DNA from: a virus
IMG/VR virus record: IMGVR_UViG_3300009149_000215
Location: 1-27,674 of that record
Length of the DNA: 27,674 bases
Reading direction: 5' to 3' (one strand)
This document shows, piece by piece, positions 2,727 through 17,869 of the stretch (positions are counted from its first letter, which is position 1; each line of letters begins with the position of its first letter). Below the pieces are notes generated by a model that saw nothing but the letters and a program-made list of their open reading frames with translations, was not told the origin of the DNA and ran no database searches. A program made the position numbers and the translations under genes.

Positions 2727-5700
2727 ATGTCAAAAATGGATGAAGTAAGTGTTTTGAGCGAGATTAAAGGGTTTCTCGAAGGACATAACGATAAGCTAAA
2801 ATATCTTGTAAATGTCGAAACCGACCCAAGATATAATTTTGCTGAATGTGTTATACATGAGCCAAACGAAAAACCAAAAATAATAAAAGTTCAATACGAA
2901 CCTTTTATGTATATGAGAGACCTATCTAAATTTGGTCGTAAGTTATATGAGGGACATTCTGAACAATTAATTGAAAGCAAGAAGATTAAGTATGGTATCA
3001 CAATCACCAAATTAAAAACAGGTAATCAAAAAAGACTTGTGAATGGTTATTGTTATAAAATAACAAGTCATAGGTCTTATAATGACATCATTAATTATTT
3101 AAGAGATGGTGGCATCAATCCATATGAAAAAGCTGAAGATATTGATGGAAACTATATTAGAGATAAGAAAGGTAGGATTATACAACCACATCGTGACTGG
3201 TTTTTTTCTCTGAGAACCACCGAACAATTCTTTGTTTCTAACCAGACCAGATTATTCAAAGGGTTTGAAGAATATAAAGATGTGCATAAGCTGACATTCG
3301 ATATTGAGACCACAGGTCTTCGTTATCAAATTTCGAGAGTGTTCGCTATTGGTGTGAGAGATAATAGGGGTTTTGAAACCATTTTAGAGGTTGAGAAAAT
3401 AAATGATGATGAATCCGAAATCAAATTAATACAGGACTTCTTTAATTTAATACACCTATTGAAACCTGCCGTTATTTCAGGATATTATTCTGAGGGATTT
3501 GACTTTGATTATATTCTTGGAAGAGCGAAGGAATTGAAAATGGATTTGAGTGGAGTTCCTACAAGTCTTAAAGATGGAATTCAACTAAGAAGACGAGGAA
3601 ATGTTAGTGTTAAGTATGGTAATACCGCAGACAAATATACTGCCACTGAGATGTGGGGATATTCTGTGATTGACATTATTCATGCAACCAAAAGAACGGC
3701 AGCAGTTAATAGTGACCTTAAAGAAACTGGCTTAAAATATATAGCTAAATTTGAAAAAATAGCTAAACCCAATCGTACATACATCAAAGGAGAAGATAAC
3801 TCAATTGGTAGATTCTATCACGAGAATAAGGTATTTCTCACAAATGAAACCAATGATTATATTGAAATTCCAGACGTGCATCAGGAAACCGCATTGAAAC
3901 TATATACAATTCAAGCAAATAAGGTTGGTGGGTTCATAACGGACGATGAATATAAGATACTTAGAAAACAATATCTTGATAGTAATCCTGAATTTGTTAC
4001 TTGGTTTAGAGGCGAAGCACTGCCGAAAAAACTAACCATTTTTATTAGTGGTAAGAAATTACTTAGACAATATCTGCTTGATGACCTTTGGGAAACCGAA
4101 CACGTTGATGAACTATATAATCAATCATCATTTATGTTGGCGAAAATTGTTCCAACGACATATCAGCGTATCTGTACTATGGGTACTGCAGCGATTTGGA
4201 ACTTACTGCTTACTGCGTGGAGTTATGAAAACGATTTGGCAATTCCAGAGTCGGATAAGTATGAGAGATTTAGTGGTGGATTGGCAAGATGTTATAAGGT
4301 CGGCTATACAAAAAGAATTAAGAAAATTGACTACGCATCTTTGTATCCAATGATTCAATTATCAGATGATGTATTCCCAATTTTCGACATTACTGCCGTA
4401 ATGAAGAAATTGCTATTATATCTTACAACCACACGTAACATATATAAGAAAATTGCCAGTGGTACTAAGCTAAAAAATGAGGAAGTAACGCTGTTGAAGG
4501 AAATCGACCACGATATCTACAACAAATATGTGAATGGCACACTTACTATTGCCGACATCGCAATGTCTAAGGTTAAACAGCTACCTATCAAAATCTTGAA
4601 CAACTCATTATTTGGTGCGTTGGGTTCAAACATTAGTTTTAACTGGTCAGATAATGTATGTGCTGCAAGAATTACGTGTACAGGTAGATTACACCTAAGA
4701 CACGGTATTGATTGGTTTAGTGATTTCGGATTAGTTGCTTTACTTGCAGTAACCGATGGTATAAACTTTAAAATACCAGATACTACAACAATAAAAGTTA
4801 CTGATGACGGCACATTATATGACCAACCAGAAGGACTTATTGAAGACATGTGGACATATGGTGGAGAAATTGGTGTTCAGGCATTAATTGAAAAATTTAA
4901 TAAAGAAGAAATGCAACCACCATATATGAGTGTTGATGATGATGGTGATAGCGTTTCTTGCCTAAACCTTTCCAGAATTAATTATGCTACCATGTCAGAA
5001 ATCAAAGACAAGAAGACTGGCGATGTTAAGGAAAAGGTTAAATTAACTGGTAATACAATCAAATCCAAAGTAATGCCCGAATACATTGAAGAATTTATTG
5101 ATAAGGGTTTGGATATGATTCTGCATGGCAACGGTAAAGAATTTGTTGATTATTATTATGACTATTGTGATGACATCAGATATATGCAGATTCCATTAAA
5201 GAAGATTGCGAGTAGAAGCAAGATAAAGACAAGCCTTTCTGCATATAAGAAAAGAGGTAAGGATAAGAATGGTAGAGAAAAGGGCATGCAAGCTCATATG
5301 GAATTGCTGATTGAAAAACGTGAGGAAATTGCTGCAGAACTTTTTGAAAAACATAAGGATAGTCTGGGATTCACCAAGTCAGAAGAAAAGCTAACCATTG
5401 ACGATAAAATTAAATTTGTTATAAACTACATGCCACCCGAACCCGAATTAGATAGTATGGTGTATTATGTTAATACTGGTTATAGAAAATCACATGGAGA
5501 CTCAAGAAAAATTGTGGATAAGGAAACTGGTATTGAGAGATTCTGTGCCACTTTGATTAGTGCCGAAGACCTGCAAGAGAATCCTGAAATGACTGGCACA
5601 TATAATTACGAAAAATATCTGGATGCTTTCAATAAGCGTGTGGTGTCACTTATCGTTGGGTTCGAACCAGAAGTTCAGAAGAAGATACTGGTTAAAATCA

Positions 5701-6401
5701 AAAAAGATGGAGACTTGAAAAAAGAAATGTTCAGTAGTGATGAGTTGGTTCTAAAGAATTTTGGTTCAGATGATTTTAAAGAATCAATGTACTTAGAAGA
5801 TTTAGAGGTTGACTTTTGGAATAAAACTGGTTATGACCCAAGATTGGTTTGGAATGGTTTTAAAATGAGTGATGAACTCAAGGTTTATTATGAGATATAT
5901 GAGAACGCATTGAAACATCTCAACGATAAAATGGACGAGATAAAAAAACCAAGAATTAAATCGATTAATGAGAAGTATGTTGATGGCGATTTGGTGCTGA
6001 TTAAAGACGGTGCTGAATATCATGTAGGTGCATTCAATGGAGTCTATCTTCAAATTGTTAGGGAAAATGTGGATGTACCTAAGAGTGAAATTGAACTCGA
6101 ACTTGATAGAAAACAAGAGGAAGAAGAAAAGAAACTTCTGGAGCTAAGAGCCAATGAACTAACGACTAAGAGTGATAGGGATATCTTTTTAGAGGCAGAA
6201 ATAGCTAAACGTAAAAAATATTTTACTGGCTTTAAACAGAAATATGGACTTCCACTTCTTTCGACAATGGAACAAGTTTTTTCTGAACTCGAAAACTCCG
6301 AAGGTGCGTTCGAAGACTATATAATCGAACAGGAGGGTGAGGACGAGAAAGAAGCTGCACAATATTTAGGTGTTGATGATGGTGGGGATGGTGCATATTA
6401 A
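2727..6401 (+). CDS. family B DNA polymerase, enlarged
   Basis: A 1224-residue replicative polymerase with 3'-5' exonuclease. Exo I is FDIETTG (D192, E194); Exo II has FDFDYI (D259, D261); Exo III is likely around YSVIDIIHATKR. Motif A is IDYASLYP (D535), motif B KILNNSLFG (K622, N626, F629, G630), and motif C reads VTDG (675-678) where DTDS is usual. The retained D677 matches the metal-binding second Asp (RB69 D623); the first Asp is Val and Ser is Gly. T4 gp43 is about 900 residues, so roughly 300 extra residues are present, mostly after motif C, with a charged, probably coiled-coil stretch near 1130-1180 and an acidic tail. The start is the first ATG after the A-rich cagaat leader; an ATG three codons on is possible. 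No own promoter is visible, so it is probably read from the helicase promoter. Confidence 0.93.
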   Translation: MSKMDEVSVLSEIKGFLEGHNDKLKYLVNVETDPRYNFAECVIHEPNEKPKIIKVQYEPFMYMRDLSKFGRKLYEGHSEQLIESKKIKYGITITKLKTGNQKRLVNGYCYKITSHRSYNDIINYLRDGGINPYEKAEDIDGNYIRDKKGRIIQPHRDWFFSLRTTEQFFVSNQTRLFKGFEEYKDVHKLTFDIETTGLRYQISRVFAIGVRDNRGFETILEVEKINDDESEIKLIQDFFNLIHLLKPAVISGYYSEGFDFDYILGRAKELKMDLSGVPTSLKDGIQLRRRGNVSVKYGNTADKYTATEMWGYSVIDIIHATKRTAAVNSDLKETGLKYIAKFEKIAKPNRTYIKGEDNSIGRFYHENKVFLTNETNDYIEIPDVHQETALKLYTIQANKVGGFITDDEYKILRKQYLDSNPEFVTWFRGEALPKKLTIFISGKKLLRQYLLDDLWETEHVDELYNQSSFMLAKIVPTTYQRICTMGTAAIWNLLLTAWSYENDLAIPESDKYERFSGGLARCYKVGYTKRIKKIDYASLYPMIQLSDDVFPIFDITAVMKKLLLYLTTTRNIYKKIASGTKLKNEEVTLLKEIDHDIYNKYVNGTLTIADIAMSKVKQLPIKILNNSLFGALGSNISFNWSDNVCAARITCTGRLHLRHGIDWFSDFGLVALLAVTDGINFKIPDTTTIKVTDDGTLYDQPEGLIEDMWTYGGEIGVQALIEKFNKEEMQPPYMSVDDDGDSVSCLNLSRINYATMSEIKDKKTGDVKEKVKLTGNTIKSKVMPEYIEEFIDKGLDMILHGNGKEFVDYYYDYCDDIRYMQIPLKKIASRSKIKTSLSAYKKRGKDKNGREKGMQAHMELLIEKREEIAAELFEKHKDSLGFTKSEEKLTIDDKIKFVINYMPPEPELDSMVYYVNTGYRKSHGDSRKIVDKETGIERFCATLISAEDLQENPEMTGTYNYEKYLDAFNKRVVSLIVGFEPEVQKKILVKIKKDGDLKKEMFSSDELVLKNFGSDDFKESMYLEDLEVDFWNKTGYDPRLVWNGFKMSDELKVYYEIYENALKHLNDKMDEIKKPRIKSINEKYVDGDLVLIKDGAEYHVGAFNGVYLQIVRENVDVPKSEIELELDRKQEEEEKKLLELRANELTTKSDRDIFLEAEIAKRKKYFTGFKQKYGLPLLSTMEQVFSELENSEGAFEDYIIEQEGEDEKEAAQYLGVDDGGDGAY

Positions 6402-6410
6402 CTTTTTATA

Positions 6411-6419
6411 GTATTTATA
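6411..6419 (+). promoter_or_regulatory. late-type promoter motif, copy 2
   Basis: An exact GTATTTATA ten bases after the polymerase stop codon. It ends 15 bases before the ATG at 6435. A short T-rich tract precedes it, but there is no hairpin, so read-through from the polymerase is possible. Confidence 0.7.
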
Positions 6420-6434
6420 TAAAAATATGTGCAC

Positions 6435-7058
6435 ATGAAATTAAAAAAGAAAGACTTGGTTGAAATAATTGATGGCGACAGTAGTTTAATTGGCAAGTCT
6501 GACATACCAACAAACGATGCTAATGCAGATACTCAAGCCAAAGGAACAACTGACGTTAACGCTAAAATCGGAACTCAGCCGTTTAGATATGACATGTTAG
6601 GTCGCTTCGGTTTTACTCTTATGCCATTTTTGGAAGGCAAGGAAAATCAAGAGCAAACCGAGATGATTAATGAATTGGGTAAGCTAATGTATGATAGGTA
6701 TGTTGAAATCGTGAAATTCTATTTCAAAAACCCTAACAAGTTAAAGCCTGATTACAGGAAGATTGTTGATGGTACTGCAACCCCAGATAAGGAAGTTAAT
6801 GCAGAATATGCAAAAAAGATTCTTAAAATAGTTGAAAAATACTTTGAGGATGCATTTAAAGAACCTGAAAAAATGATTGATGAGTCTATTCTTGATGAAA
6901 AACTCGTTGATAAAAAAACTGAAGATGAAATCACGAAAAAATCTGACGACAACGGTGTTCGTGGAAAGAAACTTGAGAAAATTGCGGGTTTAATTAATAA
7001 ACTTGAGAAAAAAGATATCGATAAGCTGATAAATTTATTGGAGAGAAACAATGGCTAA
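6435..7058 (+). CDS. helical protein of unknown function
   Basis: About 207 residues, not recognised. I take the ATG at 6435 (MKLKKKDLVEII) over the GTG two codons earlier, because GTG-His would leave only nine bases after the promoter motif. A polar linker (about 20-45) leads to a conserved-looking core with RYDMLGRFGFTLMPFLEG, then alternating charged helices and a C-terminal amphipathic stretch (LINKLEKKDIDKLINLLE) that could form a coiled coil. The stop overlaps the start of the Nudix-fusion gene by eight bases, so the pair is translationally linked and may act together. Late expression and composition fit a capsid-internal or scaffold-like protein, but this is not shown. Confidence 0.75.
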   Translation: MKLKKKDLVEIIDGDSSLIGKSDIPTNDANADTQAKGTTDVNAKIGTQPFRYDMLGRFGFTLMPFLEGKENQEQTEMINELGKLMYDRYVEIVKFYFKNPNKLKPDYRKIVDGTATPDKEVNAEYAKKILKIVEKYFEDAFKEPEKMIDESILDEKLVDKKTEDEITKKSDDNGVRGKKLEKIAGLINKLEKKDIDKLINLLERNNG

Positions 7059-7830
7059 TTCACAATTACAAGGAAAAACTTATTTAGTGCCTACTGAGAT
7101 ACTTAACAGCATCGAAGCAGCCAAGGTGAACTATCCGAACTCCGAGGGCATTAAACGAGCTAAAAACATCCTTAACGAGCCTAATCTAAGCTATGATTGG
7201 ATGAGAAGATTGAAGAATTACTTTGATAAAGCCAATCCGCAAACCGATGGTATTCGATATGCGTTAGCTGGTGGTGATGCCATGAGAAAATTTGTTGAAA
7301 CAAGCTTAACTCAAGACACAGCAGCAGTCCAGAGGTCTAAAGAAAACAGGCGTGCTGTGACAAACGATTTGGACTCGGACTTGAAACCATTTCAAACACC
7401 GAGATTAACGTTACAGGAAGAAAAGAAAGAAAAGGAAAAAAATGCAGTAGCTATAATTGTTAATGTAGACAATAAAATTCTATTATTGAAGCGGGTTGAT
7501 GACCCAAAGATTTGGCAACCAAATAAATGGGCACTTGTTGGTGGTGGAATTGAGAAGGGTGAGACCCCACAAAAGGCTGTTGAAAGAGAGATTGAAGAAG
7601 AAACTGGATTGGAAATCAAGAAATTTATTAAATCATTTACGATTGAAAGAAATTCAAACAGTATTGAGCACATGTTCGTCTGCAGATATGACGGAGAACC
7701 AACAGATATTGAGCTTGATACGAAAGAGAACACCAATTATGGTTGGTATGGTATTGATGAGATGAACTATTTAGACGTAGTACCGAATTTGGTTGATTAC
7801 ATTTCGCTTGCCTTTAAAAAATATGATTAA
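7051..7830 (+). CDS. Nudix hydrolase with an unrecognised N-terminal domain
   Basis: A 259-residue protein. Residues 124-259 form a Nudix domain with a perfect Nudix box: G165, E171, R179-E180-I181, E183-E184, G186-L187. Nudix enzymes hydrolyse nucleoside diphosphates linked to another group (ADP-ribose, NADH, NTPs, RNA caps); the substrate cannot be read from sequence. Residues 1-118 hold a separate helical domain (about 1-65, with SYDWMRRLKNYFD) and a polar linker. The linker ends at LQE (121-123), a possible prohead-protease-type site. The start overlaps the upstream gene and has one of the few Shine-Dalgarno-like sequences here, GGAGAG at 7040-7045, five bases before ATG. Close to several ART-like genes, an ADP-ribose or NAD-related role is attractive but inferred. 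Confidence 0.88.
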   Translation: MANSQLQGKTYLVPTEILNSIEAAKVNYPNSEGIKRAKNILNEPNLSYDWMRRLKNYFDKANPQTDGIRYALAGGDAMRKFVETSLTQDTAAVQRSKENRRAVTNDLDSDLKPFQTPRLTLQEEKKEKEKNAVAIIVNVDNKILLLKRVDDPKIWQPNKWALVGGGIEKGETPQKAVEREIEEETGLEIKKFIKSFTIERNSNSIEHMFVCRYDGEPTDIELDTKENTNYGWYGIDEMNYLDVVPNLVDYISLAFKKYD

Positions 7831-7831
7831 A

Positions 7832-7840
7832 GTATTTATA
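7832..7840 (+). promoter_or_regulatory. late-type promoter motif, copy 3
   Basis: An exact GTATTTATA right after the Nudix gene's TAA (7828-7830). It ends 33 bases before the ATG at 7874, and the leader between is very A-rich. Confidence 0.7.
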
Positions 7841-7873: not shown

Positions 7874-8167
7874 ATGGCAGATAAAACAACTTTTAATGCC
7901 CTTCCAGACGAGAGCGTTGGTGGTGGCAGCAGATTAATGGACATAAGCCTACAATTCAGACAATGTAGTGTTGCCAGAAATGATTATGGCAATAATAGTG
8001 CATACGTAGCAGGTCATCCTGACGCATTATCAACAGGTGATGAAGACGGTAAGGGTGAAGTAAATGGTCAAGTTGGTGGGACTACTGACATCAGAACCAG
8101 AGAATGTTCTATTGCAAAGAATAAATTTCAAAAAGGCGGTAAAGAATATAACGCAGGTACAGTATAA
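7874..8167 (+). CDS. small protein with a duplicated Cys motif
   Basis: A 97-residue protein, not recognised. It contains two copies of a short motif: RQCSVARNDYGNNSAYVAG (about 29-47) and RECSIAKNKFQKGGKEYNAG (about 76-95), giving [RQ]-[QE]-C-S-[VI]-A-[RK]-N at both ends of a glycine- and aspartate-rich middle. Each copy has one cysteine (C31, C78), so a metal site or disulfide is possible. It is the first gene after a late-type promoter and lies one base upstream of the WYL-domain gene, so it is probably co-expressed with it. Its size and late expression suggest a minor virion or packaged protein. The start is the ATG after an A-only tract. Confidence 0.75.
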   Translation: MADKTTFNALPDESVGGGSRLMDISLQFRQCSVARNDYGNNSAYVAGHPDALSTGDEDGKGEVNGQVGGTTDIRTRECSIAKNKFQKGGKEYNAGTV

Positions 8168-8168
8168 T

Positions 8169-9101
8169 ATGTTTTCTGAGGATAAAATATTGTTCGAAAA
8201 TATCAGAAACTTTCGTCATCTTCTTACTGAAGGTGTTGGTGAAAGCGAGATAATTAAAGCTATTCAAAACCACGAATGGATTTATATTAACTATAGTGGT
8301 GATGATGGTGAGACTTCTGGTAGTAGAACAGTAAGACCATATGTTCTTGGTACACATAAAGATTCTGGTAATCAGGTTCTAAGGGCGTGGCAAGACAATC
8401 CAAGAAACAGTTATGACTTTCAACATCGACCAACACGTAAGGATAGTTATGGACACGACTATTTTAGTGATGCAGAGGGTGAGAAACCGGGTTGGCGTAT
8501 GTTTAACCTCGATAAAATAACCCATGTTTATCCAATGGGAAGAAAATTTAATAATAAAGATGGTAGTGTAATGATACCTCCAAGATATCATGAGGGCGCA
8601 GATGCGGATATGAGTGATATCAAATATTATGTTTCAACATCAACACAACCTGAATATGTTGGACACCACATAGGTGAACCACAGACTGATGAACCAATGT
8701 CGAGAGCAGACCGTAATAAGGCAAGATGGGATAGTATCAGGGCAGGTAATAAGAGTAAGGTGAAAATTACTGCTGATGATGTGAAGAAATTAAAGAGACT
8801 TGCAAGTAATGTGCAAAAAACCGCACATGGAAAATATTTGGTGGTTGTTGATGACAATAATAACTTCCAATTAATGCTGGCAACCGACAAAGATAAGCAA
8901 AATATTCCTGATGCAGCAATTATTGATACATTGCCACACTTGGTTGATAGTCTTGTGAATACAAATGTACCAACCAACTCTCAATTCCATAACAAAAGCA
9001 AGGAAAGACTAAAAAGGGACATCGAAAATAATGCAAAAAAAGAAATAAAAGAAGCTGAATTACCAACAATACCGTTTGAAAAGAAAACTTTTTTCAAATA
9101 A
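8169..9101 (+). CDS. WYL-domain protein with a cleavable-looking N-terminal peptide
   Basis: About 310 residues from the ATG at 8169, one base after the previous stop; the same frame is open further upstream but overlaps the previous gene. Residues 28-128 resemble a WYL domain: AIQNHEWIYINY, a short polar turn, RTVRPYVLG, QVLRAWQ, then GWRMFNLDKITHVYPMGRKF. WYL domains are Sm-fold-like ligand or nucleic-acid sensors, common in regulators and defence systems. There is no helix-turn-helix. The first 21 residues look amphipathic and end in LLTE-G (L19, T20, E21, G22), which matches the T4 prohead protease preference and recalls the short capsid-targeting peptide of T4 internal proteins. The C-terminal half is unrecognised, with a sub-domain near 205-260 (KYLVVVDDNNNFQLMLA) and a lysine-rich tail. 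Confidence 0.82.
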   Translation: MFSEDKILFENIRNFRHLLTEGVGESEIIKAIQNHEWIYINYSGDDGETSGSRTVRPYVLGTHKDSGNQVLRAWQDNPRNSYDFQHRPTRKDSYGHDYFSDAEGEKPGWRMFNLDKITHVYPMGRKFNNKDGSVMIPPRYHEGADADMSDIKYYVSTSTQPEYVGHHIGEPQTDEPMSRADRNKARWDSIRAGNKSKVKITADDVKKLKRLASNVQKTAHGKYLVVVDDNNNFQLMLATDKDKQNIPDAAIIDTLPHLVDSLVNTNVPTNSQFHNKSKERLKRDIENNAKKEIKEAELPTIPFEKKTFFK

Positions 9102-9136: not shown

Positions 9137-9802
9137 ATGGCACAAAATATTAATTTAAATAAACTCAAGAACGAAATAGATAATCGAAAGAAAGAGAAAA
9201 ATATGGTTTCATCTGGTTTAGGTGAACCTGTAGGTGTAGGAGTTGCACCACGTGATGTATTTTTAAATGGACTTCTCGAATCATTACAAACTGGTAGGGA
9301 AACCGCATCAAGTTCATTAGTTAAATCGGTTGATAATAAAGTAGCTGTCTAGCATGGTGAATCAGCACGACTTCCAGTTAAGGAAGTGGCTGCACCAGAA
9401 CAACCACGCAAACCAATTGATATGTCACCTGAAAGGGACGAACAATTATTTGCTGACCTTGAGAAAAAGAGAAAACAAACACTCGCTGAATCAATGTCTT
9501 CATATATTGAAGCACCAAAGGTTGGTGCACCAATGGCAAACCAGCCACCACAACAAGCAGGAGCACCTGTACAGCTTAACGAACAGTATCTTGCCGAGAA
9601 CGTTAAGAATATTGTTAATGGATACCTCACAGAAAGTCTCGGTCCTATTTTCGAAGAAGCAATCAAAGGCACAATCATTGAAATGTATGCTGTCGAAAGA
9701 ATAAAAGAGGTACTACATGAAAACAAAGACCTGATACGAACGGTGGTAATCGAAACCATAAAAGAGATACAACAAAAAAATAAAGCAAAAGCGCAATCTT
9801 AA
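9137..9802 (+). CDS. helical protein interrupted by an in-frame amber codon
   Basis: One reading frame runs from ATG 9137 to TAA 9800-9802 with a single TAG at 9350-9352 (codon 72). The parts are 71 and 149 residues. Before the TAG the text runs SLVKSVDNKVAV and after it HGESARLPVKEVAAP, which reads as a continuous helical, low-complexity protein. The second part has Q/P-rich linkers and ends in amphipathic helices (IVNGYLTESLGPIFEEAIKG, then RIKEVL). It lacks a convincing start: GTG 9386 has AAGGA only one base away, and the first ATG is 9422. I favour one gene with a nonsense change, read-through or suppression over two genes. Global TAG recoding is unlikely, because 1913- and 1224-codon frames nearby have none. 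Function is unknown; it is possibly a capsid-internal protein. Confidence 0.7.
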
Positions 9803-9840: not shown

Positions 9841-9849
9841 GTATTTATG
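9841..9849 (+). promoter_or_regulatory. late-type promoter motif, copy 5
   Basis: GTATTTATG, one mismatch to the consensus, 24 bases after the terminator's T tract and ending 19 bases before the ATG of the giant gene at 9869. The leader ends in ttcagaac, like the cagaa leaders of the genes at 2727 and 18415. Confidence 0.6.
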
Positions 9850-9868
9850 AATATATTATATTCAGAAC

Positions 9869-12800
9869 ATGGCTAAAGAAAAATTCCAGTTATACGAACT
9901 CTTCAACTTCTTTGATGGCAATGACGATATTCTCGGAGATATGCCACCACAAGATGCTATTGATACTCGCAGGGGTATGTGGGCACAAATACCCTATAGT
10001 GTTGATGATGGGGGTGATAATAGCGATGCTGTTATCAATGAACAATTTATTGACTTCGTTTCAAACAGAGAATACTATCCAAGCAGAGCGTTAACAGTAA
10101 TGCCATATTTAATGGAACGCTTTAATGAGTGTGTTGGTAATCTTAAAGAAGTACTTAATCATGCTAAAAATCCAAAACGTTTTTACGAAAACCTAATTAA
10201 GCTTCAGGAGTACCTTATTGAACAAAATTCTTATGATGGTGAACCATTATCAATGATAACTGAAGAGGACGAACAATCTGACATTCGCCCACCGATAATG
10301 GGTTATGAGGTAATGGACGATATTAAATATGTAACTGATTTAGCAAATGCTGTCACTGAAAAGTTGAGAATAGCAAGACCACAAAAAGATTTGGGTGGTG
10401 GGTCAAAGGGTAGAGCATTTTTAATAAATGATAATCTTGTTATGAAAATAACCTCAGATGTTAGTGAGGCTGATGCAGGATTTAAAATCATGAGAAATCA
10501 CCCCAAGACACTTGCTGAAGTATTTGAAATCTATAAATTAATTGACACCGAAACAAAATATTCGTTTTTTGTACTATTCGAAGAAAATATAAAAGATAAA
10601 CCCACTGAGCTATTTAAACAATACGATAGGCTTATTATGAAAATCATGCCAAAGGAAATGTATATGGGCGATGTTTGGGTGTTATTTAAAAAAAGACGTG
10701 AAAAACTTGCTATTGCATTTGATGAAATAAGAGACCTCCCACAAAGAGTAATAACAGATAATCCAGATGCTGGTGTGGATTTAGACACAAGAAAGAAATT
10801 ATCTGCCTTTATTTCAGGTATTTTTGCAATTAAAGATGAGTTGGTTCGTCTCGGCATTAATAGCAATGATTTTAGTCGATATGAAAATCTTGGATATAAA
10901 AATGGTGTATTAACATATTTTGATGTTGGTGATTATAAGGCAGATGAACCTACTTTCGGAGATAAAAATACCATATTGCTACCAGAAGGACAAGAAAATC
11001 TAACAGAAGAATATGATAGGCAGACTGCCGATGAAATAGCGATGCAGGTCGCACAACAAAAGGGATTAGGTAACCCAACATATATGAGAGGTGGTAGACA
11101 TGGTATTGCGTATGATATTGGTAATGACAGAGTGCTTAAAATTACTAAGGATAAAAGTGAGGCGGTTGAAAATCTAAAGCTTATTGATAAAAAATTAAAA
11201 TATGTGGCTGAGATATTTCATGTTTATGAGGTTAAGTCAAAATCACATGAAATTCCAGATACGTATGCAATCGTTTTAGAGAAGCTTGATACTGACACTG
11301 AGATAGTAAGACGATATGACCGATTAGAATATGCATTTGAAAAAATCATGGATGTTAAAATTCCAGATGTAATTGAACACTACCTTGAAGAATGGAATCA
11401 TAAAGAAGTAAATAAGGAAAAAATTAATTCTTATTTTAAAAAGAACCCACAAGATGCAGAATTTTTTGGCGGTTTACTTAGAATAGCAGAGGAAAGTAAA
11501 GCAGAGGGTATCGATAGTTATGATTTTCTCAATCCATTAAACCTTGGATATAAAAAGAATGGTGCATTAGCGTTTTTTGATGTTGGTTCAGGTACTGACT
11601 ATTTTGAACCTAAAGGTGCTGAACAGGTTGTTGTAGATGAAGACGGCAGTGCTAAGTTCAGTACACCAGATGCTATTGGACAAGATGGTTTTCCACCTTA
11701 TGATAACACAGGCGATTCCTCTCAACCAATACGAAACAATCTCGATGCAAATTCTGCAATGTATAATGAAGACCTTGAATATAATCACGTAGATGGTGAT
11801 GCTACACAGGATGAGTATATGTTAACTGAATCAAGAGCAGATTTTTTATCTTGGAAAAGAAAAAATGTTACGATTAGAGGTATGCAAGAAGTTGGTAAAG
11901 AAAATAATGGAATGGCTTCATTTGGTCAGGGTTTATATACCGCAGCATTAGGAAATAAAGAATTGGCAAGGAAATATGGTAAAGTCTATTTTGTTGTGGG
12001 TGCGATACCAAAGCATCCAAAAATTGTTAATACTTGGAACGATGCTGAAATATTTCTGCAAAATGTTGTGGTACAATATGGTAAGAAAAACAGTATTGAT
12101 AATTATTATGATGCGAAAAAGGAATTTGAGGTAAAAACAAATGTTAGGGACGAGATGTTAGAATTGGGATATGATGGATTAATCATTAAAGGACGTGAAA
12201 TGGTTAATTACACACCCGAAGACATTAGATATTTTGAAACTGAACAGGAATTAGAATCATATTACGATTCAATATCAAATGATATTAATGAGAGAGATAA
12301 GTCATATGGTAAGGGTTCACAAACAGTTACTGTTAAAAAGAAATGCCAGCTTGGTGGAAACGGTGATGGAACAAGCACCGCATGTAACCAAGGCGATATA
12401 AGTAATTTGGAGTTGGGTAGTATAAACGAAGCACCCTTTAGCAATTATCAAGGAAAGGATGTTTTTATGAACCCTCAAGTAATTAATAGACTTGCTGATG
12501 ATGCCAGAGGTTGGCTTGATAGAGATGGTAACTTATATATGATTGATGACGGCTATAATCTAACACACTCTGCATTAATGTTTCCATTACTTGCTAAAGG
12601 ACTTATAGATGCCGAGGACGTAATGAAGTACATGGACAGCGATAAGGGACTTGCAGTACAAAAGGTGGGTAATACGAATTTTCTTGCAATGAGCGATGCA
12701 TATAAAGGTAATGCTGAAAGCAAGTTCAATCAATTTAAGTCAGCAATTGATATGGCAGTGAAAAGAAATCCTAAAATTAGGTTTATTGGTGTAAACCATG

Positions 12801-15610
12801 CTGATGCAGAAAATCTTGATTTACAGGTATTACGTACCAAAGTAATGCAAACACAAACCATTGATGAAGATATTGATGCAAGTGAGGCACATTATGATGA
12901 AGACGCACTACAAACAGTCATTAATGGTAGACGTGGGGTGGCGTTAATTGGATTCGGTGAAACACCAATAATGAGAACAATGGTTGATGGTGCACGTCAT
13001 AAACAAAGAGCTATTGATGCAGGACTAAACCTGATTCCAATTAAACAATCTGAGGTAAGTCATCAGGGTCTGGATATGAATATTGTCTATCGCAACGGAT
13101 TTGAAAAACAAGCCAGACGTTTATATGATATTATGATGAGTCATGGTGGATATGTTGCAGATAAAACACCTGAAGAAGCTCGTGAAATCGGTAAGATTTT
13201 TGATTATACCGAGGATTCGATTGAAGACTATGTTAGAAGAAAGTACCCAGAAACATTAGCACCAGTAGAACCTTCACCCGAAGATTATTATGATTTTGCA
13301 GAAAATTTGGAAGTCTCAGAAAATATTGATAATATTGCATCCATGAATGAAGCAGAAATATTATCGTTACAAGACCTACCTTTTAAAGATGAGGTCGAAC
13401 AGCTTGGTGGTAAGATATATAGTGTTGGTGGTGCAGTCCGTGATGAATTTCTTGGACTGGATTCCAAGGACTTAGATATTCTTGTTACTGGCATCCCACT
13501 TGAGGAACTTCAGGCAATACTTGCTAAATATGGTAGAGTTAGTCTTGAGGGTGAATCATTTGGTATATTAAAATTTAAACCAGAGGGTGCAACTGAAGAT
13601 ATCGATGTTGCTATTCCAAGAACCGATGCTGCAACTGGCGGTGGAGGTCATAAGGATGTTGAAACAAAATCAGACCATGAGCTACCAATTGAAAAGGATT
13701 TGGAACGCAGAGATATTACAATCAATGCAATGGCAAAAGACATGGAAGGTAATCTTATCGACCCATATGGTGGCGAAGAAGACCTGAAGAATAAAATTAT
13801 ACGTGCAGTTAATCCTGACGCATTCAATGATGACCCATTGAGAATGCTACGTGCAGTTCAATTTGGAAGTCGTTTCGGTGGTTTTGGAATTGAACCAAAA
13901 ACCATGCAGATGATTAAAGACACTGCGCCTGCAATTAAAAACATTGCACCAGAAAGAATTTTAACTGAATTTGAGAAAATCATAACCAAAGGCAACCCAA
14001 GAGTGGGTGTTGAATTACTGGTAGAGACTGGTTTATTCAAACAGATATTTGGAAATCAGATTCTGCCTTCACAAATAGGTCGCAGAGATTTTGAGGGTGT
14101 TAGGACTATGGCAGAGCTATTATTCTTAATGATGGATGGTGTAGTACAGAATCCTGCGGAATTCTTCTTACAGAGATTTGCAACAGATAAGGCTAAGAAA
14201 GCTAAGATTTATAAGGAGATGCTGGCATTAAACGAAGCATTTAATTCTGATTTAATTACTGAGCCTATAACCAAAGTTAATGCAAGGTCAGTTACTTCAA
14301 ATATGTTTAAGAAAGCACCACAAAGTCTTGAGAGTCAGATACTACCTGAAGCAATTGAAACCGCAGCACAGGAACTTTTACAGGGTAAATATCCTAAGAA
14401 TGAAGATGAGTTGGCTGCAAATGGTAATGATTTAAAGGAAATCGGAATAACCAATGGAAACGATATTGGTAAAATGAAGAAATCATTATTAATTAAAATT
14501 TATGCAGATATTGTTAGGAATAACCGAGAAGATTTATTAGCTTTGGCGAAAGAAAATGCGCCTATCGTTAAGGAATATAATAGCTATCCAAGTCCAATGA
14601 ATGAAGGTGTTTTAAATGAGATGTCAATAAACTCAATTAGTTTTGATAATATTGTGACACCTCAATATATTGAAGAATTAAAACGTAGTGATAATTACGA
14701 AAGATATTTAGAATATTTCAAATATGAATACCATCTCGAAGACCAAGAGGACGGGGAATTGGAACAACACCCAGAATTTGAAGGTTGGTTAAGGGATGAA
14801 TTATATCATAGATATGACACGGCTGTTGATAATATTGGTGATGTAATTAAACCAGATGGAACAATTGACATTTGGAGGGAAATGACGGTGGATGAAAATT
14901 GGCTTAAAAAGCTCCCACAATCAGGAAAACATCTTGGAATATATTGGTCATGGGATGAAGCAGCAGCAGAAGCGCATTGGGGTCATTCTGGTGGACTGAG
15001 AGTACAAATAAAATCTTCTGTGCGTGAAGAACACGTTAACTGGCACGATACCATTATTTTAAACATGGATATAAGTCTTGGAGAGGAAGAGAAGGAAATT
15101 AGATTATTTAAAAATACTGAACTAAAAATTGAGGAAATGTATGTTGATGGTAAATATGTTATGGATACTCCAGAAGGCAATATCTTGAAAGATAAAACAT
15201 TTCTTGCAGAAGAAGAAATAAAAAATATTGCATATAGTGCTGTTGTGCTTACCGATGAATCACACGCTAAACTATTAAAGGTTTTCGGTAAGATGATTCC
15301 TGAAGGCTGGAAACCATATGCACATCATATGACAATAAAAATGGGTAAACTTGAAACGGGGTCTAAGGAAGAAGAGGATATGGATAATAAGGAATTAATT
15401 ACCTTGACCGTTTTAGATTATGCTATTGATGATTTAGTTATTGCTGTTGGTGTCGAAGGATATCCAACAAACAATGCTAAACCACACATAACATTAGCTG
15501 TAAATATTGAGGGCGGTGGTAAGCCATTCTTCTCAAATAAATTAACCGACTGGAAACCAATTGGATTTCCATTGAAACTGACTGGAATAGTAACTGAAGT
15601 ACCGAGATAA
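9869..15610 (+). CDS. giant multidomain effector: kinase-like x2, ART x2, CCA-type nucleotidyltransferase, 2H phosphoesterase
   Basis: 1913 residues. Domains I can place: kinase-like 1, about 170-356 (GGGSKG 176-181, K193, D334, N340, D352 of FDVG); kinase-like 2, about 400-577 (RGGRHG from 407, K424, D552, N558, D571); ART-like 1, about 655-800 (GQGLYTA from 686, LGYDGLIIKGRE from 766); an unrecognised stretch to about 1160, preceded by C826-QLGG and AC839-NQGDI; a CCA-adding/poly(A) polymerase domain, about 1165-1575 (VGGAVRD 1186-1192, catalytic D1201-L-D1203, RRDITINAM from 1280, RMLRAVQFGSRF from 1325); ART-like 2, about 1660-1760 (R1670, S1694, E1741-K-E1743); and a 2H phosphoesterase, about 1785-1913 (H1820-M-T1822, H1873-I-T1875). 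Each border has an [LIM]-x-E tripeptide (E132, E380, E654, E854, E1161, E1579/E1584, E1781), as if cut by a prohead protease. The stop shares its last base with the next ATG. This is a polyvalent-protein architecture; packaging and injection are inferred. Confidence 0.9.
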   Translation: MAKEKFQLYELFNFFDGNDDILGDMPPQDAIDTRRGMWAQIPYSVDDGGDNSDAVINEQFIDFVSNREYYPSRALTVMPYLMERFNECVGNLKEVLNHAKNPKRFYENLIKLQEYLIEQNSYDGEPLSMITEEDEQSDIRPPIMGYEVMDDIKYVTDLANAVTEKLRIARPQKDLGGGSKGRAFLINDNLVMKITSDVSEADAGFKIMRNHPKTLAEVFEIYKLIDTETKYSFFVLFEENIKDKPTELFKQYDRLIMKIMPKEMYMGDVWVLFKKRREKLAIAFDEIRDLPQRVITDNPDAGVDLDTRKKLSAFISGIFAIKDELVRLGINSNDFSRYENLGYKNGVLTYFDVGDYKADEPTFGDKNTILLPEGQENLTEEYDRQTADEIAMQVAQQKGLGNPTYMRGGRHGIAYDIGNDRVLKITKDKSEAVENLKLIDKKLKYVAEIFHVYEVKSKSHEIPDTYAIVLEKLDTDTEIVRRYDRLEYAFEKIMDVKIPDVIEHYLEEWNHKEVNKEKINSYFKKNPQDAEFFGGLLRIAEESKAEGIDSYDFLNPLNLGYKKNGALAFFDVGSGTDYFEPKGAEQVVVDEDGSAKFSTPDAIGQDGFPPYDNTGDSSQPIRNNLDANSAMYNEDLEYNHVDGDATQDEYMLTESRADFLSWKRKNVTIRGMQEVGKENNGMASFGQGLYTAALGNKELARKYGKVYFVVGAIPKHPKIVNTWNDAEIFLQNVVVQYGKKNSIDNYYDAKKEFEVKTNVRDEMLELGYDGLIIKGREMVNYTPEDIRYFETEQELESYYDSISNDINERDKSYGKGSQTVTVKKKCQLGGNGDGTSTACNQGDISNLELGSINEAPFSNYQGKDVFMNPQVINRLADDARGWLDRDGNLYMIDDGYNLTHSALMFPLLAKGLIDAEDVMKYMDSDKGLAVQKVGNTNFLAMSDAYKGNAESKFNQFKSAIDMAVKRNPKIRFIGVNHADAENLDLQVLRTKVMQTQTIDEDIDASEAHYDEDALQTVINGRRGVALIGFGETPIMRTMVDGARHKQRAIDAGLNLIPIKQSEVSHQGLDMNIVYRNGFEKQARRLYDIMMSHGGYVADKTPEEAREIGKIFDYTEDSIEDYVRRKYPETLAPVEPSPEDYYDFAENLEVSENIDNIASMNEAEILSLQDLPFKDEVEQLGGKIYSVGGAVRDEFLGLDSKDLDILVTGIPLEELQAILAKYGRVSLEGESFGILKFKPEGATEDIDVAIPRTDAATGGGGHKDVETKSDHELPIEKDLERRDITINAMAKDMEGNLIDPYGGEEDLKNKIIRAVNPDAFNDDPLRMLRAVQFGSRFGGFGIEPKTMQMIKDTAPAIKNIAPERILTEFEKIITKGNPRVGVELLVETGLFKQIFGNQILPSQIGRRDFEGVRTMAELLFLMMDGVVQNPAEFFLQRFATDKAKKAKIYKEMLALNEAFNSDLITEPITKVNARSVTSNMFKKAPQSLESQILPEAIETAAQELLQGKYPKNEDELAANGNDLKEIGITNGNDIGKMKKSLLIKIYADIVRNNREDLLALAKENAPIVKEYNSYPSPMNEGVLNEMSINSISFDNIVTPQYIEELKRSDNYERYLEYFKYEYHLEDQEDGELEQHPEFEGWLRDELYHRYDTAVDNIGDVIKPDGTIDIWREMTVDENWLKKLPQSGKHLGIYWSWDEAAAEAHWGHSGGLRVQIKSSVREEHVNWHDTIILNMDISLGEEEKEIRLFKNTELKIEEMYVDGKYVMDTPEGNILKDKTFLAEEEIKNIAYSAVVLTDESHAKLLKVFGKMIPEGWKPYAHHMTIKMGKLETGSKEEEDMDNKELITLTVLDYAIDDLVIAVGVEGYPTNNAKPHITLAVNIEGGGKPFFSNKLTDWKPIGFPLKLTGIVTEVPR

Positions 15611-16107
15611 TGGATTGGATTGAATCATCTAAAATGGGTTTTGAGTTCGAGGATTTTACATTACAAGACCTAAACCAAAAACATTTCCCTCTTGCATATA
15701 AAAATATGAAAAAAGAGGAATATAGTTTCTATGATATTGTTTTAATGAAAGACAGTCTGGTTAACTATAAGACTGCTGAATGTAAGTTTGATGAAATGGG
15801 TAGTGTGAGTGGTAATATCTGTATTGAGGTTGGTCAGTTCGGTAGACAGTCAGGACTTTTAATTACAAAAGCCGAGTTCTGGATTATAAGTGATGGCACT
15901 ACCACATATATTGCCAAAACAAAAAGAATTCATGATTGCATTGTTGATAACATGAATCAAATTGAATATAAGAAGAAAGAAAGGGTGGAGCAAAGAAAGG
16001 GCGTGTTTAAAGAAATGGATATGTATATTATACCAAAACGATTGTTCATCCCTTATTGTGATGAAATTGGAAACATAAATGAAATGAAATACGATTGTTT
16101 ATTATGA
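15610..16107 (+). CDS. PD-(D/E)XK nuclease-like protein
   Basis: 165 residues. The segment from D42 through E57-C-K59, GNICIE (68-73), QSGLLITKAEFW (80-91) and ISDG resembles the phage PD-(D/E)XK pattern in which D, E-x-K and a following Gly-Asn-Ile-x-Ile-Glu strand, then Ser-Gly and Thr-x-Ala, form the active site and substrate pocket. D42, E57 and K59 are the candidate catalytic residues. Such proteins cut DNA, or sometimes RNA, as resolvases or restriction-type nucleases. It starts on the last base of the giant gene and overlaps the HAD-ART gene by four bases (ATGA), so all three are translationally coupled. The basic stretch KKKERVEQRKG near 125-135 could contact nucleic acid. The target is unknown. 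Confidence 0.72.
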   Translation: MDWIESSKMGFEFEDFTLQDLNQKHFPLAYKNMKKEEYSFYDIVLMKDSLVNYKTAECKFDEMGSVSGNICIEVGQFGRQSGLLITKAEFWIISDGTTTYIAKTKRIHDCIVDNMNQIEYKKKERVEQRKGVFKEMDMYIIPKRLFIPYCDEIGNINEMKYDCLL

Positions 16108-17024
16108 AAAGATTGGCAGTATATGATTTTGATGGGACATTAATGGACAGTCCTGAACCAGAAACTGGAAAACCACAATGGGAAAAGGTAAAAGGAGAAC
16201 CATATCCACATAAAGGATGGTGGGGTCGTGCTGAAAGTCTGGACACCGATGTGTTCGACATCAAACCATTCCCAAATATCTTAGCTTTACTCAAGGCTGA
16301 TATGGCAGACCCAGATACTACTACAATTATTTTGACTTCCAGAATGGAGAAACTTAGACCTCAACTTGAAAACATCTTGGCGTTGAACGGTATTGTTGTC
16401 GATGAACTCATAACTAAAAGAGGTGCTGAAGACAAGGGAGATGTGATTCTGAAAATAGAGAACTATAATCAGGACTTGGAGGAGATTGTGGTTTATGATG
16501 ATTTTGCTGGTGGTATGCAGAATAAAATTACTGAATACACAAAAATCAAAGACCTGATATTACCAAAGGTTCAATATAACATCTATTATGTAAACAACGA
16601 CAGAATTAGCTTAATGGAAACCAGCAACATTTTATTACGCATGATTAATGAAGAAATAAAAAATTTTGTTGCAGATAGTGAATATGTATATCATGGTACA
16701 AATGATGGTGCTGGGTATCATATTCAACGTGATGGTAGAATGAGAATAAATGCTGCTGGGAATAATGAGCCGTATATTTCATTCACAAGTAAACCAAAAG
16801 TAGCAAGTTATTATGCAACCATGAAAGGTGGTTCTGGTAGGGGTGTTGTATTGAGAACAAAGAAAACCGAAGATTTTAAATTAGCACCTAAATATGAAAA
16901 GAATGAAGGGTTCGAATGGATTACTACCAGAGAAATTCCAGTAGCTGAACTTGAAATCAATACAAAACACGGTTGGATTCAATTAGATAGTTGGGATTTC
17001 ATCGATAAAGAAATAAAAAAATAA
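16104..17024 (+). CDS. HAD phosphatase (RNA-repair-like) fused to an ART-like domain
   Basis: 306 residues from the ATG at 16104, which overlaps the upstream TGA. Residues 1-175 are a HAD-type phosphatase: DFDGTLMDSP (D8, D10), a tryptophan-rich cap (WGRAESL), the motif II strand IILTSR, a lysine-containing stretch near LITKRGAEDKGD, and acidic motif VYDD. The DFDGTL...P...W...SL...R layout resembles the Swiss-army-knife RNA-repair HAD family. Residues about 194-290 look like an ART fold of the H-Y-E type: YHGT (196-199), ISFTSKPKVASYYA (about 225-238), E271-W-I-T-T-R-E277. INE (181-183) lies between the domains, a possible prohead-protease-type site. Together with the 2H and CCA-type domains of the giant protein, an RNA-end-processing role is plausible; the ART target is unknown. 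Confidence 0.83.
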   Translation: MKRLAVYDFDGTLMDSPEPETGKPQWEKVKGEPYPHKGWWGRAESLDTDVFDIKPFPNILALLKADMADPDTTTIILTSRMEKLRPQLENILALNGIVVDELITKRGAEDKGDVILKIENYNQDLEEIVVYDDFAGGMQNKITEYTKIKDLILPKVQYNIYYVNNDRISLMETSNILLRMINEEIKNFVADSEYVYHGTNDGAGYHIQRDGRMRINAAGNNEPYISFTSKPKVASYYATMKGGSGRGVVLRTKKTEDFKLAPKYEKNEGFEWITTREIPVAELEINTKHGWIQLDSWDFIDKEIKK

Positions 17025-17031
17025 GATTATA

Positions 17032-17040
17032 GTATTTATA
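17032..17040 (+). promoter_or_regulatory. late-type promoter motif, copy 6
   Basis: An exact GTATTTATA eight bases after the HAD-ART stop codon. It ends 13 bases before the ATG at 17054, which would leave a very short mRNA leader. Confidence 0.7.
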
Positions 17041-17053
17041 GTAAAATATTCGT

Positions 17054-17869
17054 ATGATTGACATGAGATATAAACCACGTTTTCTTCCACAGATGAATGC
17101 ACCCTATGATGTTGTGCTTGAAAAGCTTGATGAAGAGGGTGTGGGTTATGAGGTTGTCGAAGTAGACCCAAATGAATTAGAGCCACTACAAGGAATTACT
17201 ATCAGTGATGAAGTTGGAAAGGTAAATGGCGATGATATGAACCCTATTTGGATATCTCAAAACAATAAGGTTCTTGATGGTCATCATAGAATGGTTCGTG
17301 GGTTGCTTGATAACAATAAAGTTAAAGCAATCAAAGTAGGATTAAATGAAAAGGATGCTGCAAGGGTTTTAAATAAGATTCAAGACATTTATGAATATGA
17401 ACAATCACAGGGACTGGAAGAGGTTGAGGTACAAGACACCATTAATTATTATGGGGATGATGAAAATCAGTTCTTAAATACATTAGAAGAAGATAATTCT
17501 ATGGTGCAGCAGGAGACATCAAGTGCAAACCAGCAAACTATTATTGGTTATAGAAAAGACCCAATCAGCGATAATTCTGTTGTTGGTAATTTCTTTATGC
17601 TGAAACCACTTGAAGGCTACGATAAATATCAGATAGAGTTTGAGAATCTATTAGATACTCATGCGTTGGGTTTCATGTATAAAGATGGTCAACAACCAGT
17701 TGAAATTCTGGCGAAAATCTGGTTTCCTAATGTGAATTTTGAAGAAATAAGTAAACAATATAATATGCCATCCATCAATCTAAAAAACAAGGCTATTGCA
17801 GAAAAGGCACAGAAAATGGGATTTGATGGTATTAAATATGGCGATACATTAATTCAAGGATTAAAATAA
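17054..17869 (+). CDS. ParB/sulfiredoxin-like domain with a C-terminal ART-like region
   Basis: 271 residues. The N-terminal half contains NPIWISQNNKVLDGHHRMV (about 62-82) with D75-G-H-H-R79, the signature of the ParB/sulfiredoxin fold (DGxHR), which in relatives binds nucleotide and acts as a CTPase, nuclease, kinase or phosphotransferase. An acidic, Q-rich linker (about 120-158) follows. The C-terminal part (about 160-271) has TIIGYRKDP, GNFFMLKP and a final MGFDGIKYGD; the last is very like the LGYDGLIIKGRE of ART-like domain 1 in the giant protein, so I suspect an ART relative, with less confidence. ParB and ART modules often share polyvalent phage proteins. It has its own late-type promoter and lies eight bases before the next gene. 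DNA segregation is an unlikely role here. Confidence 0.75.
   Translation: MIDMRYKPRFLPQMNAPYDVVLEKLDEEGVGYEVVEVDPNELEPLQGITISDEVGKVNGDDMNPIWISQNNKVLDGHHRMVRGLLDNNKVKAIKVGLNEKDAARVLNKIQDIYEYEQSQGLEEVEVQDTINYYGDDENQFLNTLEEDNSMVQQETSSANQQTIIGYRKDPISDNSVVGNFFMLKPLEGYDKYQIEFENLLDTHALGFMYKDGQQPVEILAKIWFPNVNFEEISKQYNMPSINLKNKAIAEKAQKMGFDGIKYGDTLIQGLK

Follow-up and report, generated by a model that had tools for sequence, protein, structure and literature searches.

WYL domains are known mainly from bacterial regulators, where they act as sensors; several of these regulators serve in anti-phage defence. The window analysed here, a stretch of viral DNA of 27,674 nucleotides from the IMG/VR collection, encodes a WYL protein whose short N-terminal segment ends in a motif of the kind cut by prohead proteases. 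This raises the question whether the protein is packed in the phage head and, if so, what it might do there or in the infected cell. We favour, and consider fairly probable, the answer that the protein is made late in a jumbo-phage lineage related to T4, has a cleavable leader and ends up inside the head. The features of the locus are collected in Table 1.

Table 1. Features of the WYL locus in the window (a slash between residues marks a proposed cut)
Feature	Position	Strand	Remarks
209-aa ORF	6429..7058	+	same block as the WYL ORF; late-promoter-like motif at 6411
259-aa ORF	7051..7830	+	uncharacterised N-terminal domain fused to Nudix domain; order kept in relatives
Late-promoter-like motif GTATTTAT	7832..7839	+	before the two-gene unit of 7874-8167 and WYL
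97-aa ORF	7874..8167	+	immediately before WYL; gene order kept in relatives
WYL ORF, 310 aa	8169..9101	+	leader, WYL fold, second alpha/beta domain, conserved tail
Leader, residues 1-21	8169..8231	+	MFSEDKILFENIRNFRHLLTE; proposed capsid-targeting propeptide
Proposed cut E21/G22	between 8231 and 8232		[LI]xE before G, A, S, N or Q in 33/33 homologues
WYL fold, ~residues 22-154	8232..8630	+	Pfam; Foldseek matches PafBC, BrxR, DriD, CapW
Pfam WYL stretch, residues 27-74	8247-8390	+
Second alpha/beta domain, ~residues 176-268	8694..8972	+	model confidence ~80-89
C-terminal tail AELPTIPFEKKTFFK	9054..9098	+	conserved in main group
1,913-aa multi-enzyme ORF	9869..15610	+	LxE sites at module borders; late-promoter-like motif at 9841

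Architecture of the WYL protein

The WYL reading frame extends back to another ATG at 8064; Met1 was fixed at the ATG at 8169 because relatives have an in-frame stop 2-3 codons upstream of the equivalent ATG. The Pfam family PF13280 matched the window protein with 21.7 bits when searched alone (cut-off 21.8) and with 25.4 bits when frame neighbours of the ORF were included, and it was matched by 14 of 25 homologues. An AlphaFold model based on 25 homologues gave a good WYL core and a second alpha/beta domain at about residues 180-266; it had low confidence at residues 15-23 and drew a single helix over residues 3-34. The best matches of this model among solved structures in Foldseek were nearly all WYL regulators, namely PafBC, BrxR, DriD and CapW (E 1e-3 to 1e-2, probability ~1.0 for most). 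Family profiles of helix-turn-helix (HTH) domains matched neither the window protein nor its homologues, and no HTH was evident in the model. The modelled structure therewith supports an HTH-less WYL fold. The first-pass annotation had placed LLTE-G at the end of the first 21 residues, immediately before a WYL domain without HTH, and both statements were borne out, the WYL fold taking up about residues 22-154. A sequence profile of the protein searched against solved structures returned nothing useful, and queries with the window protein and with the homologue in G016 found no cultured relative in the phage-record collection.

The G016 homologue is short (130 aa), lacks the second alpha/beta domain and consists of little beyond the WYL fold. 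In most WYL proteins of the main group an [ILV]xE stands ~15-17 residues from the C-terminus (9024-9098 in the window) and is followed by a tail of the form ...P.IP..K.TFFK; no other protein in the main-group genomes clearly ends in this way. A mature protein starting at G22 is predicted to yield the semi-tryptic peptide GVGESEIIK, the fully tryptic counterpart of which is HLLTEGVGESEIIK.

Conservation of the N-terminal site

Homologues were gathered from viral-contig scans with the protein, an alignment and a distant member, and from loci reached through the capsid protein. The resulting count of 33 covers homologues outside the megaphage group and leaves out L142-L144, three homologues from 630-kb phages. 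Every one of the 33 has L or I at P3, E at P1 and, at P1', G (17 of 33), A, S, N or Q, with P2 variable; the leaders measure 13 to 23 residues and the sites lie at residues 13-25. As these homologues are related and not independent, the argument is carried by a few types of leader that do not align among themselves. Main-group leaders are well conserved and share KILFEN...FR.L; the others share little beyond the site (MNLYSIFSELILE/A, MTLLEHIFRELLEE/S, MLKLYNIFE/SVILE/Q and MLNIFNIYEDLLLE/A).

Conservation is the test here, because [LI]xE[GSANQ] occurs within the first 24 residues in 6.1% of 703 proteins from two related genomes, a chance rate that makes one motif weak evidence. Moreover, the motif in a single protein cannot stand alone, since N-terminal LxE[AGS] shows no clear proteome-wide enrichment in G010 and G011. 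Once relatives are compared, the conservation of the putative cleavage site is far from chance. The most telling case is the pair L139 and L141, in which a domain of ~95 residues lies directly behind E14 of the leader, between the leader and the WYL domain. The segment preceding their WYL domain (TSISVTNINDAINNKNE) holds no LxE and the site remains N-terminal; we conclude that it is a feature of the N-terminus rather than of the WYL fold. This pair is the strongest single fact for regarding the segment as a putative leader. In the group of the 735-kb phage, the site likewise lies ~20 residues or more away from the WYL domain. L142-L144 read [LI]xE/D, with D at P1', and were treated as weaker.

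Several observations from the same comparison were set aside. For L242 the automatic choice of the site (position 25) is probably wrong and LLLE/A at 14 fits better; the count of 33/33 holds either way. The leader LFENIKNFRHLLTE/G was likened to a capsid prodomain end, LFENQLSHMINE/S, and to the leader of a G011 ORF, IILFENYMRKQINE/S; the likeness (20 matches vs 9.4 in shuffles) involves only three families and is inflated by homologues; it was retained as a lead and did not serve as evidence. The DNA polymerase of the lineage (2727-6401 in the window) and its relatives carry a conserved N-terminal FLEG, from which it follows that not every N-terminal LxEG can be read as a leader. Nothing beyond FLEG supports the polymerase as a second packaged protein, and being an unlikely cargo it was dropped as a candidate.

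Head genes, probable late expression and neighbouring genes

The window, a fragment of 27.7 kb, has no head genes, and the capsid and protease genes were read in relatives only. A T4-type gp23 capsid protein was matched in G008-G011, G016 and G022, and Peptidase_S77, the T4-type prohead protease, in G008-G011 and G016. By analogy with T4, the prodomain of the capsid protein is predicted to be cut at MINE/S in G008-G011, LLNE/S in G016 and LIYE/A in G022. The capsid protein of the 735-kb phage reads QMNE/N at the same place, in agreement with RINE/N in one WYL homologue of that group. The first-pass annotation had compared the leader with a T4 capsid-targeting peptide ending at a prohead-protease site. 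This comparison is strengthened by a site that is invariant over differing leaders and stays N-terminal despite an inserted domain, by a lineage gp23 with a matching site, and by an S77 match in most members checked. Packaging and injection, which the annotation also suggested, are plausible and would suit control by a late promoter.

The prohead protease ORFs of G010 (63002-64846) and G011 (214152-216080) are ~615-650 aa long and appear to hold an intein between ...EADHPD and SSIISLQ...; intein-like insertions were also noticed by eye in a glycosyltransferase-like ORF of G016 (16023-17720) and a helicase-like ORF of G010 (73381-75918).

A coding-strand motif, (A)GTATTTAT, is found mostly 20-50 bases ahead of start codons, and many more genes lie behind it than behind its reverse complement (49 vs 7, 76 vs 9 and 18 vs 0). 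The genes behind it include scaffold and gp25 and, as judged by eye, tail sheath and tail tube. This distribution suggests that the motif is probably the late promoter of the lineage. In the window it occurs at 39, 6411, 7832, 9106, 9841, 17032, 18368, 22191, 25919 and 27014, and the copies at 6411, 9106 and 9841 precede other genes of the WYL block. In that block, the G016 homologue of the 259-aa ORF (14170-14601) lacks the Nudix part, and window positions 9137-9352 and 9386-9802 are two pieces of one ORF that measures 219-242 aa in relatives; the split reflects either a frameshift in the phage or an assembly error.

The 1,913-aa ORF of the block has a CCA-adding enzyme as its only confident Pfam or PHROG match; its other enzyme-like modules were judged by eye. 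Its LxE sites stand, for instance, after E654, E854, E1161 and E1579. The linker ...ACNQGDI.NL... ends in [IVL]xE in 8/8 relatives, and at this end the similarity of the giant ORFs stops and different modules follow. A module IDASEA..., or a close form of it, lies behind such a site in the window, G001, G006 and G010, the upstream module of the window being a different one. Modules are likewise exchanged at LTE/S in the window and LTE/G in G007, with different modules next. On these grounds the giant ORF appears to be a polyprotein of enzymes with head-protease sites between them. Its cutting is less certain than that of the WYL protein, because P1' is not limited to small residues at the junctions. 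The polyvalent phage proteins (Iyer et al. 2017, PMC5512222) join unrelated enzyme modules, as the giant ORF seems to do, and the latter stands among probable late genes; its modules, however, meet at LxE of the prohead-protease type, whereas zincin-type processing has been proposed for polyvalent proteins (PMC5512222).

Proposed role, alternatives and known systems

We propose that the 21-residue leader would guide the WYL protein into the prohead core, like a capsid-targeting sequence (CTS) of T4, and that the Peptidase_S77 prohead protease, of the gp21 type, would cut after E21 and leave a mature protein beginning with G22. The mature HTH-less protein would stay with the DNA in the head and be ejected with it at infection. 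Core entry and cleavage have support in the sequences; DNA retention and ejection are inferred. Accounts of the parts differ in strength: that the WYL protein is cleaved and packaged is likely, and ejection combined with a role in the cell is a tentative suggestion, as is injection followed by the sensing of a ligand. Most likely the protein would bind nucleic acid, or a nucleotide that acts as a signal, at an early stage of infection; it may also hold DNA in the head. The ligand is suggested because connections of WYL domains with cyclic-nucleotide and ADP-ribose signalling have been described (PMC7824862, PMC9503650) and WYL structures have been solved with single-stranded DNA (ssDNA), several of the solved WYL entries among the Foldseek matches being ssDNA binders.

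The N-terminal segment might instead be no more than helix 1 of the WYL protein, with LLTEG as a structural helix end that is never cut. The continuous helix drawn in the model, the FLEG of the DNA polymerase and the good conservation of the leader itself in the main group all fit such a structural helix, and the first two of these, together with the missing enrichment in G010 and G011, the D at P1' in L142-L144 and the core status of the gene, are the points that count against a cleaved and packaged head protein. A plain helix end is nevertheless unlikely: leader length varies and the site does not, P2 is free and P3, P1 and P1' are restricted, and in L139 and L141 a whole domain separates the site from the WYL fold, with no LxE in the segment next to that fold. 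Still less probable is that the protein acts as a regulator in the infected cell without being packaged. Most WYL proteins with solved structures control transcription, which would suit this reading, but no HTH was found, the gene has the late-promoter-like motif common to structural genes, and the conserved leader ends in a protease-type site.

More weight is due to another reading, a real if minority possibility: the protein would be a cleaved part of the head with a structural task or one in organising DNA, which stays in the head or just passes the tail and is no host effector. The WYL gene is present in 14/14 contigs of at least 200 kb that were chosen by their capsid protein, and absent from four shorter contigs so chosen, which may be fragments; from the 14/14 we take it to be a core gene of the lineage. 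Core status speaks for a basic task in the head or for one in infection that all members need. A head component would also suit the conserved block of neighbouring uncharacterised late genes, the minimal homologue with little beyond the WYL fold and the ssDNA binding of several solved WYL proteins. On the other hand, the enzymes of the giant ORF nearby would suit a task in the host, and elsewhere WYL domains are tied to nucleotide signals (PMC7824862, PMC9503650), both of which speak against this reading.

Genes of T4 internal proteins are variable. T4 IPI-IPIII and Alt, the CTS of which is cut by gp21, resemble the WYL protein in having a short leader at the N-terminus with a final Glu as cut site (a proposed one here), a late gene (here a putative one, behind the late-promoter-like motif) and a phage with gp23 and S77 protease, both of which are matched in the lineage. 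They differ in that the cargo here has a WYL fold, its gene is core and not variable, and the protein is known from sequence alone; the likeness to the T4 CTS is one of form only, the leader in G016 being a hydrophobic helix with LxE/A. The leader of the T4 internal proteins measures ~10-20 residues (PMC7411985). In SPN3US and phiKZ, N-terminal propeptides of ejection proteins are removed after a Glu motif by the prohead protease (PMC5694885). The predicted cut of the WYL leader resembles this removal, but in those phages the motif reads AxE or SxE and the propeptides of SPN3US are mostly longer than 100 residues, whereas the WYL proteins have (L/I)xE and mostly 13-23 residues. PafBC, BrxR, DriD and CapW have the WYL fold in common with the phage protein, according to the model comparison; unlike them, it lacks an HTH, is encoded by a phage and has an uncharacterised second domain and a protease-type leader. 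In the open-licence literature searched we found no description of a packaged WYL protein, and a role in the head, where the protein is probably packed, would be new for WYL proteins as far as this literature goes.

If the proposal is correct, a packed WYL protein could influence such signalling, or the handling of DNA, as soon as infection starts. Moreover, the LxE leader and the LxE-punctuated polyprotein would offer a simple sequence rule by which packaged cargo could be predicted for jumbo phages and megaphages that are uncultured and seldom accessible to virion proteomics. A broader idea, which we regard as doubtful, is that a core HTH-less WYL protein in the heads of this widespread lineage and its distant 630-735-kb relatives enters the host together with the DNA and binds or soaks up a nucleic-acid or nucleotide alarm signal, and that the neighbouring polyprotein, diced by the head protease at LxE into exchangeable modules, belongs to the same cargo system.

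The 735-kb phage LR756501.1, which has a distant WYL homologue, extends the pattern beyond the lineage. A text search of the literature found no description of N-terminal LxE leader enrichment in this megaphage. In its first 400 kb (L118-L137), LxE[AGSN] is enriched 3.5-fold with E at positions 11-15 and [LIVMF]NE ~7-fold N-terminally; LxD and LxK controls are flat. The counts suggest that this megaphage may package dozens of proteins, and starts resembling a T4 CTS recur among them, such as MIKKYIQFINE/A and MDKYNNFINE/A.
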